64,000 bases of DNA from Methanomicrobium mobile BP (GTDB lineage: Archaea; Halobacteriota; Methanomicrobia; Methanomicrobiales; Methanomicrobiaceae), in NCBI RefSeq assembly GCF_000711215.1, contig NZ_JOMF01000004.1:1-64000 (forward strand). Reading direction: 5' to 3'. A program made the translations under genes and the position numbers. The notes under the pieces were generated by a model. It searched no databases. It worked only from the letters and a program-made list of their open reading frames with translations, and had not been told where the DNA came from. This document shows, piece after piece, positions 12,403 through 36,800 of this stretch (the stretch's first letter is position 1; the number at the start of each line of letters is the position of its first letter).

Positions 12403-13050
12403 ATGAAATCAGTCTCTCTGATAACGGCACTGGCGATTCTGGTGATCTTTACGGCCGCCGTATCCGCAGGGTGCACGCAGAATGCGCCTGCGCCGCAGGC
12501 AACCGCAACGGCGACAGCGGCAGTGCCGACAGAGAATCCGACCGCGGCACCAACAATATCAACACCTGTCCCAACCCCGACACCGACACCCGCACCGACA
12601 GTGCAGAGTACGGTCGCACCGACGCCGACGCCTGCCGCGACTTCGGCAAACGCCGGCAAAGTCATCTATGACGAGAGAAAAGGTGTTCCCATAGGAAATG
12701 TCCTTGTAATCAAATTCGACGAGAATCTGGATATACCGTTCCTGCAGAAAGGCGAGAAATACCTCTTCGAAGTTCAGTGCACAAAACCCGTGAACATTCT
12801 CTTCATGCAGATGACGGAATACGACTCGAATGTCTATACGCCGCCGAAGTGGGACTCGCTCAAGGGCGAATGGAAATATAACGGCAAGATGACGAAGCAG
12901 TTTGACAATACCCTTCAGAAGAACTTTGAGGTGACCATCCCGCGTATAGGCAAATACTGTCTCTTCATCGACGCCAGAAACACGGACAATGACGTGCTCA
13001 TTGAAAAGGAATCGGTAGCGGCGGACATAAAGATCACAAGACTTGAGTAA
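12403..13050 (+). CDS. predicted lipoprotein with Thr/Pro-rich stalk
   Basis: A 215-residue exported protein. Residues 1-22 form a signal peptide ending in a lipobox-like VSAGC, so the protein is probably lipid-anchored at Cys23 on the outer face of the membrane. Residues 24-85 are a low-complexity stalk of Ala, Thr and Pro, a common wall-spanning spacer and possible glycosylation region in methanogen surface proteins. Residues 90-215 form a compact beta-rich domain with two cysteines; I do not recognise a named family. It is divergent from cofC; AT-rich ATAATATTATC near 12368-12378 may serve as promoter. Confidence 0.8.
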   Translation: MKSVSLITALAILVIFTAAVSAGCTQNAPAPQATATATAAVPTENPTAAPTISTPVPTPTPTPAPTVQSTVAPTPTPAATSANAGKVIYDERKGVPIGNVLVIKFDENLDIPFLQKGEKYLFEVQCTKPVNILFMQMTEYDSNVYTPPKWDSLKGEWKYNGKMTKQFDNTLQKNFEVTIPRIGKYCLFIDARNTDNDVLIEKESVAADIKITRLE

Positions 13051-13125
13051 GAACAACGGAACGAAAACCGAACGAAAACTGAACAAAATGCGGTCAATGA
13101 CCGGAAATGACCGGACGGTAAAATC

Positions 13126-13968
13126 ATGAGCGGCAGTTATGAACATCTCTCGGAATCGGCACTCTCCGAGAGGCAGAAAGAGATAGTCCGTTCCGTAACG
13201 GATTCTCTGAAGGAACTGAGCTATGTCGCGGCGGTATACCTCTTCGGTTCGTATGCGAAGAATACCCATACGCCGTATTCCGATATCGATATAGGTGTCA
13301 TTCTCCACGAGCCCGCAAGCCGGTGGCAATACGAGAAGGCGGGTCAGTTTGCGTCGGATCTCATAGATGTCGAGATATTCAACCGCATGCCCGTCGAGAT
13401 AAGGAATGCCATAGTCTCCGAAGGTATCCTCCTCTACTGCCGCGACGAAGAATACCTCTCCGAAATAATCAAAGAGACCGTGAGGGAATACTCGGTGGGC
13501 AGACCCTATGTCGCCGAGCAGAAAAAGGTCGCAGGCGGTCATGTCATATATGTCCCCGATAAGAAAGAGAGACTCTTATCGGCGATTGCCAAGATTAAGC
13601 AGTATTATACGGAGTATTCGGCAATAACCGCGACGGGAATACCGAAACGCGAGGATTTCATGCGGTATCACTCGGTGTCCATGATAATGTTTGCAATCAT
13701 AAACATGTCCTTCAGCATCGGCGAAGAGGTGATAATGCTGCGCAAACTCCAGCATCCGAAGTCGCACCGCGATATCTTCAAGATTCTGCACCACGCGGGC
13801 ATAATCTCGGAAGAATTGCGCGACGAGATGACCTCGCTCGTCTTCTACCGCAACCATTTCGCACATCAGTATTCGGCAATCGAGGAGGCTGACCTCTACT
13901 CAATCGCGGATAAGATGGACTCCGTTCTCGAATACGTGGACATAATGACCAAAGCCGGTCTAAAGTAG
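13126..13968 (+). CDS. fused MNT nucleotidyltransferase-HEPN protein
   Basis: A 280-residue single chain joining two domains that are usually separate toxin-antitoxin partners. Residues about 12-125 are a minimal nucleotidyltransferase: GSYAKNTHTPYSDID at 41-55 fits GS-x10-D-x-D exactly, and DVE at 81-83 offers the third acidic residue. Residues about 150-275 are a helical HEPN domain with RNHFAHQY at 242-249, matching R-x4-H-x-Y (R242, H247, Y249). In HepT-MntA systems the MNT protein AMPylates the Tyr of this motif and so silences the HEPN ribonuclease. All key residues appear intact in both halves here. It stands alone between a lipoprotein gene and an A-rich spacer. Activity of the fusion is inferred. 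Confidence 0.88.
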   Translation: MSGSYEHLSESALSERQKEIVRSVTDSLKELSYVAAVYLFGSYAKNTHTPYSDIDIGVILHEPASRWQYEKAGQFASDLIDVEIFNRMPVEIRNAIVSEGILLYCRDEEYLSEIIKETVREYSVGRPYVAEQKKVAGGHVIYVPDKKERLLSAIAKIKQYYTEYSAITATGIPKREDFMRYHSVSMIMFAIINMSFSIGEEVIMLRKLQHPKSHRDIFKILHHAGIISEELRDEMTSLVFYRNHFAHQYSAIEEADLYSIADKMDSVLEYVDIMTKAGLK

Positions 13969-13977
13969 CCCGATAAA

Positions 13978-14133
13978 ATGTAAAAAAACTAATCAAAACA
14001 AAAATAAAAAAAAACTCAAAAAAACTCAAAACCCAAAAAACAAAAAACTCAAAAAACTCAAAAAACTCAAAAAACAAAAAAACAATAAAAAACAAAAAAA
14101 CAATAAAAAACAAAAAAAACAAAAAAACAAAAA
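13978..14133. repeat. A-rich low-complexity array (9-bp units in part)
   Basis: About 155 bases almost devoid of G, built from CAAAAAACT units of 9 bp (clear at 14041, 14050, 14059) and decaying copies such as CAATAAAAAA. It separates two convergent genes. On the minus strand it is T-rich and directly downstream of the ferredoxin-thioredoxin reductase gene, so it could end that transcript. Confidence 0.75.
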
Positions 14134-33886: not shown

Positions 33887-36800
33887 ATGGCACTATTTGA
33901 GAGAAAAAAAGCACCAAAAGAGTCCGACTCAGACGACGGCGGCGAGATAGGCTCACTTATCAAACTGCTTTCGTCCAAGAACTGGGAGGAACGCGGTAAT
34001 GCCGCAATACGCCTCTCGGAGATAGGTCAACCGGCAGTAGTGCACCTCTTAAAAGCGCTGGATTCCGAAAATTCTCTCATACAGACCGGCGCCGCCGAGG
34101 TCCTCGGAACATTCGGAGAGGCGGCACTCCCCACTCTTTTAAAAGTAGTCTTCTTCGGAAAAGAACGTGCACGCGACGGTGCGGCAAGAGCGGTCGGTCA
34201 GAACGGCGCGGCTGCGATACCGCAGCTCAAGGAAGCCCTGGGCAATAAAGAGAGTGCCTCGGTGAGAAGCGGCGCCGTACTATGTCTTGGCTATATGGGT
34301 TACATGAGTCAGGATGTCGAAGGAATGCTCGTCGAAGCCCTCCGCGACAGCAACTCGAACGTGCGCATTCAGGCGGCAAAATCCCTTGAGAACATAAACT
34401 GGATACCAAAGACCAAGACGCAGAGGGCGCAGTTCTTCCTCGCAAAAGGCGACTACAACTCGCTTGCGAAACTCGGAAAGGATGCCCTGCCCGCGATACA
34501 GTCCGAAGTCCTCTCCGGCTCGACCGAGACAAAGAAGAAGATTGCCGAAATTCTCCCCAAAATCGCGGCAGAAGAATCCCTCTATGTCCTCTTAAAACTC
34601 ATCGAGGACTCGGATGCGCAGGTCAGGCAGAAGACCGTTGCCGCAATGAGCGAGGCAAGCGACAGAAGACTCATCCCTTATATCATAAAATCGCTCGACG
34701 ACGAGGACTCATACGTCAGGATGGAGGCTGCATGGTCTCTCGACAGAAAAGGCTGGAAACCGTCTAACAACGATGAAAAAGCCAAATACCTGATGATCAA
34801 GGAGAAGTGGACCGAACTTCTCCAGATGCGCGATGCTGCAGTCCCCATCCTCATCGCCTCACTCAAGGACAAGAATCCGGGTATCAGGCTCAAATCGACC
34901 GAAGTTCTTCGTGCAATGGGCAATGTCGGCTACGCTGCCATCAACGAAGCACTCAAGAGCGAGGATCCCGCGCTGAAAGCCGGCGCCATGGAAGCGGTTG
35001 CGGTCATCAAGAAGAAGAATGCCGCCGCAGCCAAGGCACAATCCGAGAAGAAGAAAGCCCAGACCCCCGACGAAGAGGTCGAAGAGCAGTTAAAGCGCCA
35101 CAAAGAGGAGATGAAAGCCCGCAACGGCAATTCCAAGACCGAGGAACAGTGGGCCAAGATAATGCGCAAGAACGGTCTCGACGAGGACAGAATCGCAAGA
35201 TTCTCCAAAGCCCTCTCGGACGAGAACGAGATCATGCGTGCCGCCGCCGTCGAGAACCTGAAGGCAACCGGCAACTGCGGTATCGAGTGTATGATCATTC
35301 TCCTTGCCGACCCGAAGAATAATGTGAGAATCGCGGCTATCGAGTCTCTCGGCGATCTGAGGGCGAAGCGTGCCGCAAAATACCTTGTCAAACTCATAAA
35401 GGACAAGAACGAGAATGTCAGAATGGCATGCGTCCATTCTCTCGGTCAGATGCACGATCCCGAGACTCTCGGAAGCATAGTCGGAAGGCTCTTCGATCCG
35501 AATGCCGCCGTGAGGAACAAAGCCATCGAGACCGTCGCCAAGTTCGGATCGGAGGCGCTGCCGCATCTCAAGGAGCATCTCTCGATTCAGGATATGGCAG
35601 TCCGCATCATTGCCATCAGGACAATCTCGAAGATCAGTCACCCCGATTCGATTGCCCTCTGTATCAGGATGCTCAACGATACGGAATACGATGTAAGGCA
35701 GTGTGCCGAGGCGGCTCTTCTGGCACTTGCAGATACGCAGTTCAACCCGCTCGTTGATTATGCGTTCAAGATATCCAAGCGCGGCAAGACTCTCGAGAAG
35801 ACGGGTATTATCGCCGTGCTTGCGCAGATAAAGGACAGCAGGGCACAGCAGGCGATAGCGTTCTTCCTGCAGGACTCCGAGGAGAAGGTCGTCGATTACG
35901 CCAAGAAATGCCTGCAGGGTCAGCAGCAGGAAGAGTTTACCCCCGAACTTCTGAAGAATCTCGAGGAGCAGGCACATGCGGCAATGCGCACGCGCAGCGA
36001 GGCAAAGCCGACCGCGACCGCGAAGACGGGAACGGCAAAGCCTGCGGATCAGGCGGAGCATACAGGAAAGGCGGATACGCCGGTCGCGACAGGCGAGGTG
36101 CCCGCGGCATCTGCGGAAACGGCGACAACAGCGGCAGCCGCGGACGCGGATGTTACGGCCCGGGTGTCTGCGCCCGTATCCGCGCCTGTATCGGCTCCAA
36201 AGCCCGAAGAAGAAGGGTTAACGCCGGAGGAGGAAGCCGCCGCCGTGGCAAGAGATCTAAAGAGCACGGACAGCGCCGTTCAGATGAAAGCCGCAGAGAA
36301 GGTCTTTATGATGGGCGACATCATTATTCCGCCGCTCATAGAGGCTCTCAACGACGAGAATCCCGAGACCAGGACTTTCATCGCCGAGATACTTATCGGT
36401 CTGGGCGATACCGCGATTCAGGGGCTTGTAAAGGCGCTCGAGAACCCCGAGCCCGCAATCCGCATGACCGCGGCGCAGAGCCTCGGAAAGATTCCCGACG
36501 AGGTCACGATAACGGCTCTCTGCGGCGTTCTCGAGAATGACCACAACTCGCTCGTAAGGACGGTTGCCGCTGAATCTCTGGGATTCATGGGCGACAAGCG
36601 TGCCCTCAATCCCCTTATCGCGGCTTCCAAAGAGAACGACAAGGCTCTGAAATCGGCGGCTCTGAGGTCGCTCGGATACATCAACGACGAGCAGGCGATT
36701 CCGACACTCATAGAGACCCTCAAGAATGCCGATCCCGAGATTGTCAAGATTGCCACCGCCGCTCTCACGCAGTACGGTTACGAGGCGACAAAAGCCCTTG

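Follow-up and report, generated by a model that had tools for sequence, protein, structure and literature searches.

Methanomicrobium mobile BP is a methane-producing archaeon of the rumen. In the window (the whole stretch of DNA that was analysed, 64,000 nucleotides from contig NZ_JOMF01000004.1), one open reading frame joins an MNT adenylyltransferase (MntA) to a HEPN RNase (HepT), and the question raised by this locus is whether an RNase can gate itself; fusions that could show this have been noted before, rarely. In the separate proteins of S. oneidensis and the archaeal Thermococcus cleftensis, MntA (motif GSX10DXD) AMPylates the tyrosine of the RX4HXY motif and neutralises the HepT RNase, and the modification is lost in GS-to-AT or tyrosine mutants (PMC7641770). 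These type VII HepT/MntA systems (class I HEPN/MNT; S. oneidensis SO_3166/SO_3165, PDB 5yep, 6m6u and 7bxo; T. cleftensis CL1_0071/CL1_0070) belong to the families NF047751 and NF047752, as do the two parts of the M. mobile protein, and they share with it the GSX10DXD and RX4HXY motifs (PMC7641770). Whereas the known systems consist of two proteins in variable ratio, the M. mobile fusion is one chain with a fixed 1:1 ratio.

Domains and active-site residues of the fused frame

The frame lies at 13126-13968 on the plus strand and encodes 280 amino acids, as described in the original prediction. Pfam identified the protein as a match to HepT-like (PF01934; E=1.3e-15) over residues 151-263 and to Polbeta (8.9e-16) and NTP_transf_2 (1.7e-14) over residues 23-109; scores were 57.6 bits for PF01934 (cut-off 23.5) and 54.4 bits for PF01909 (cut-off 21). 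The NCBIfam equivalog models also matched both parts. The MntA model NF047752 aligned to residues 30-123 (13213-13494, plus strand) with 65.5 bits against a curated cut-off of 60, and the HepT model NF047751 aligned to residues 155-263 with 61.6 bits, narrowly passing its curated cut-off of 60; the orthologue at locus L021, described below, reached 56.1 bits with the HepT model, just under that cut-off. The top solved-structure (PDB) matches of the fusion are the HepT and MntA chains of S. oneidensis. Based on the Pfam, NCBIfam and PDB matches, the HEPN domain was placed at residues 151-280 (13576-13965, plus strand), and the profile searches thus assign the C-terminal half to HEPN and not to another fold. 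Because it comes from Pfam and NCBIfam profiles, this domain assignment is independent of the motifs.

Within the MNT domain, the GS-x10-D-x-D motif GSYAKNTHTPYSDID occupies residues 41-55 (13246-13290, plus strand), and within the HEPN domain the R-x4-H-x-Y motif RNHFAHQY occupies residues 242-249 (13849-13872, plus strand). The sequence features of a type VII MNT (GSX10DXD plus a third acid: G41, S42, D53, D55, D81) and of a type VII HEPN (RX4HXY: R242, H247, Y249) are therefore all present. The two motifs occurred together in 0.0095% of shuffled copies of the protein (200,000 trials). The claim that MNT and HEPN domains are fused in one chain with key residues intact thus holds, with Pfam, NCBIfam and motif positions in agreement, and every residue number given for it (G41, S42, D53, D55, D81, E83, R242, H247 and Y249) is exact. 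The proposed D-x-E third acid at residues 81-83 fared less evenly: D81 (13366-13368, plus strand) is conserved in eight of nine MNTs in alignment A3, whereas E83 is shared by the nearest relatives only, its position being Q, S, N or R in other MNTs. D81 is most likely the third carboxylate of the nucleotidyltransferase site, judging from an alignment that is ambiguous by one or two residues relative to S. oneidensis MntA around D81-E83. AlphaFold predictions from three-sequence alignments gave a pLDDT of 41 for the whole protein and 52 for the HEPN domain alone, a confidence too low to judge whether D53/D55 could reach Y249.

Relatives and frequency of the fused arrangement

Beyond the genus, the fusion is most closely related to adjacent two-gene pairs (MNT then HEPN) in two genomes of the same family (G023 and G024). 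These pairs carry the same motifs as the fusion and align to it with 46-48% identity in the MNT domain and 45-51% in the HEPN domain; however, each domain has an ORF of its own, and a gap separates the two. The contrast with two-gene systems that had been drawn from the M. mobile frame is supported. The MNT tree and the HEPN tree agree, each placing the fused clade as sister to the G023/G024 pair with full support. The GS motif and the arginine of the HEPN domain are 201 residues apart in the fusion, versus 203 if the two proteins of the G023/G024 pair are joined end to end, so this is an end-to-end fusion without an added linker. The near relatives retain the residues corresponding to R242, H247 and Y249, and R-x4-H-x-Y is retained in nearly all of 51 related HEPN rows. 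One two-gene HEPN relative (L029, in G203) reads RNRLAYQY, with the catalytic His replaced by Tyr. Genome G023 also holds a second two-gene pair (L012; G023:C1:1871395-1872216), in which the genes are in the same frame with one TAA between them and GF replaces GS in the MNT.

A joint-profile search of 232 genomes of the class found strong matches in 28; among these 232, and for this subfamily, both domains are read through without a stop only in three genomes of the same genus. In a phylum sample of 394 genomes, with at most six candidates scored per genome, we identified one distant full-length fusion, in a genome of another archaeal family (G380; L087:3786-4616). Like the M. mobile protein it is one chain, passes both NCBIfam models and has both motifs intact; however, it is very distant in both domain trees. 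Among the sampled rows the trees require the fused label to change at least three times, so separate origins of the fusions are probable, and the G380 fusion probably arose independently. In another genome (G145; L088, C30, about 35987-36520, minus strand), a single ORF holds both domains with the catalytic Arg changed to Gln (QN for RN) and a shorter GS-to-DxD spacing; judged by its sequence, it is a fusion fitting the published inactive pattern, which is taken up below. Among plasmid records, both domains and both motifs occur in one frame only in Cytobacillus NZ_CP097350.1 (L044:2977-3777), a singleton. That record is annotated with a DUF86 gene alone and its relatives have two genes, and the frame could represent a genuine fusion or result from a frameshift. 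Chain I of PDB entry 9z7q (Cmr1-MntA, 438 aa) matches the MNT profile; to judge by its name, it is a further case of an MNT in a single chain, here attached to a CRISPR subunit.

The architecture itself has been reported. An HEPN-MNT fusion on the Agrobacterium plasmid pAgK84 was mentioned in 2009 (PMC2701414), and DUF86 was listed in 2013 as "occasionally fused to MNT" (PMC3710099, Table 1). The same paper remarks that the RNase residues are typically missing from MNT-fused HEPNs, which are probably inactive and were exapted for substrate binding (PMC3710099, section 14). Whereas those fusions share the architecture and were mentioned without study, the M. mobile fusion keeps all catalytic residues, and it is apparently a conserved, active-site-complete exception to that remark. 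The literature searched, with subscription journals mostly outside it, yielded no experimental work on a fused HepT-MntA.

Constraint on both domains and readings of their function

Uninterrupted orthologues with 95% and 90% identity occupy the same locus in two other Methanomicrobium genomes (L020 and L021), and public records matching these two genomes are goat abomasum and water-buffalo reticulum MAGs of Methanomicrobium. Comparison of the three genomes gave dN/dS values of 0.05-0.13 for the MNT half and 0.035-0.07 for the HEPN half, with no change at any catalytic residue. With purifying selection on both domains in three species, neither active site looks abandoned. The junction that links the C-terminal MNT helix to HEPN helix 1 (residues 136-146; 13531-13563, plus strand) falls inside the least constrained stretch, residues 124-150, where dN/dS is 0.14-0.37 and where L021 carries a one-codon insertion. 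No internal start codon near the HEPN N-terminus is conserved in the three orthologues. An internal start yielding a free HEPN was rejected, as GTG119 is GTA in the two other genomes and GTG124 is GTT in L021.

Type VII systems have two separate adjacent genes with separable products, whereas in three genomes the fusion is a single uninterrupted ORF. Since this feature alone is missing and all sequence features are present, it is less likely that the fusion is an ordinary type VII member; the proposal that it works like one is unaffected.

We lean toward the reading that the fusion is a type VII toxin-antitoxin pair collapsed end to end into one self-AMPylating, self-gated RNase chain. HEPN domains dimerise mainly via alpha1, alpha2 and the tyrosine loop (PMC11586414), and by homology those of two fusion chains would dimerise to form the RNase site with two MNT domains tethered to it. 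The MNT domain of the same or the neighbouring chain would then use ATP to place one or more AMPs on Y249, the predicted acceptor. This AMPylation would keep the RNase off by default, and RNase activity would appear if Y249 were left unmodified or lost its AMP, whether through low ATP at synthesis, damage to the MNT site or a putative phosphodiesterase. Such self-gating is plausible. In the S. oneidensis complex the nucleotide does not lie near Tyr104 of the HepT bound to it (PMC7641770), and the fusion is a natural construct for asking if an MNT domain acts on the HEPN domain of its own chain or of another. Known MNT:HEPN complexes have ratios of 2:6, 2:2 and 1:4, and their geometry might therefore be out of reach for a chain fixed at 1:1. 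With the 1:1 ratio fixed and no release of toxin by antitoxin decay, the fusion also makes AMPylation control separable from differential stability. A fuller version is offered tentatively and with considerable doubt: the protein may be a single-chain RNase that AMPylates itself within a homodimer and is active when fresh until ATP-dependent silencing, a timer or ATP sensor and not an addiction module, which has arisen more than once in archaea.

It is unlikely, in our assessment, that the protein is instead a domesticated nucleotidyltransferase, in which the HEPN domain would serve as a substrate-binding or dimerisation module similar to that of kanamycin nucleotidyltransferase, the MNT domain would modify another protein or a small molecule, and the RNase site would be incidental. 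Kanamycin nucleotidyltransferase and DrrA/SidM differ from the fusion in lacking an RX4HXY RNase site and in having other substrates. Like the fusion, they combine a nucleotidyltransferase and a helical HEPN-like domain in one chain (PMC3710099), and the published remark on MNT-fused HEPNs, along with the fixed chromosomal place of the gene in a housekeeping neighbourhood in three species, is in keeping with domestication. However, R242, N243, H247 and Y249 are all retained under strong purifying selection, as they are in two-gene relatives, and the presence of R242 and H247 in three orthologues sets the fusion apart from the inactive substrate-binding class, whose HEPNs are without the RX4-6H residues. 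The Arg-to-Gln fusion in G145 shows what loss looks like.

Less probable again is a steric restraint, in which the tethered MNT C-terminal helix would block the HEPN cleft and AMPylation would be secondary or absent. The alpha4 helix of S. oneidensis MntA inserts at the RX4H site of HepT (PMC7641770), and the stretch of the fusion matching alpha4 leads straight into the HEPN domain. In S. oneidensis, however, binding without modification was insufficient to neutralise HepT (PMC7641770), and a protein restrained in this way would have no need to retain GS, D53, D55 and Y249.

Chromosomal setting

In all three genomes the gene order is folD, a pterin-synthase-like gene, cofE, cofC, a lipoprotein-like gene, the fusion, a ferredoxin-thioredoxin reductase subunit, purQ, purS, purC, cofG and fen; the reductase was checked with Pfam, and the other neighbours were named from their translations. 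In three other genomes of the same genus, which are without the fusion, cofC adjoins the reductase gene with a gap of about 80-155 bp, indicating that a unit of about 1.7 kb (lipoprotein gene plus fusion) is either there or missing as a whole. The lipoprotein-like gene directly upstream (12403-13050, plus strand) encodes a signal peptide, a Cys and a long Pro/Thr linker, and has no Pfam match. Its close relatives were found only in the three fusion-carrying genomes, always just upstream of the fusion and on the same strand, and it diverges faster than its neighbours; it is a possible operon partner of the fusion.

This setting bears on whether the locus is a classical mobile or addiction toxin-antitoxin system, or a phage-defence module, that has merely lost a stop codon, a reading we consider very unlikely. 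The family is patchy, and the absence of the fusion from three genomes of the same genus fits mobility; however, the shared locus and the strong constraint across three species, the housekeeping neighbours and the lack of close plasmid, phage or viral relatives all speak against it, and differential antitoxin decay is impossible with a single chain. As toxin and antitoxin cannot be degraded separately, a chromosomal self-gated switch is probable here, and not an addiction module. The role in phage defence suggested in the original prediction was not borne out, given the housekeeping neighbours and the lack of relatives on phage or viral contigs. PADLOC returned only partial matches to the nucleotidyltransferase half, the best at 35 bits to the candidate PDC-S09, and no defence island was seen at the fusion locus among the neighbours read in three genomes. 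A viral or phage origin was likewise rejected, as searches of phage and viral contigs, with the MNT profile left out, gave no matches. Finally, although the genome is a 12-contig draft, a frameshift, an assembly error or a decaying pseudogene is refuted, because two other genomes hold the same unbroken ORF and dN/dS in each domain is far below 1: the fusion is a maintained gene, not a relic or an assembly error.

A domain search of the M. mobile genome found no other HepT-like domain and one other NTP_transf_2 match, a 462-residue frame that looks like a CCA-adding enzyme. The idea that another MNT or HEPN of this genome acts in trans was rejected, since the genome search gave only this likely CCA-adding enzyme.

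Repeats flank the fusion on both sides. The gap between the lipoprotein gene and the fusion (13055-13115) holds short degenerate repeats, AACCGAACGAA three times and AATGACCGGA twice, and sequence resembling them is present in L020 and L021. Downstream, an A-rich tandem array of about 150 bp (13982-14133) is built of units AAAAACTC and AAAAACAA, and neither L020 nor L021 showed a long array of this kind. On the minus strand this array is T-rich and closely follows the reductase gene's 3' end, where it is likely an oligo-T terminator of the purC-purS-purQ-reductase run.
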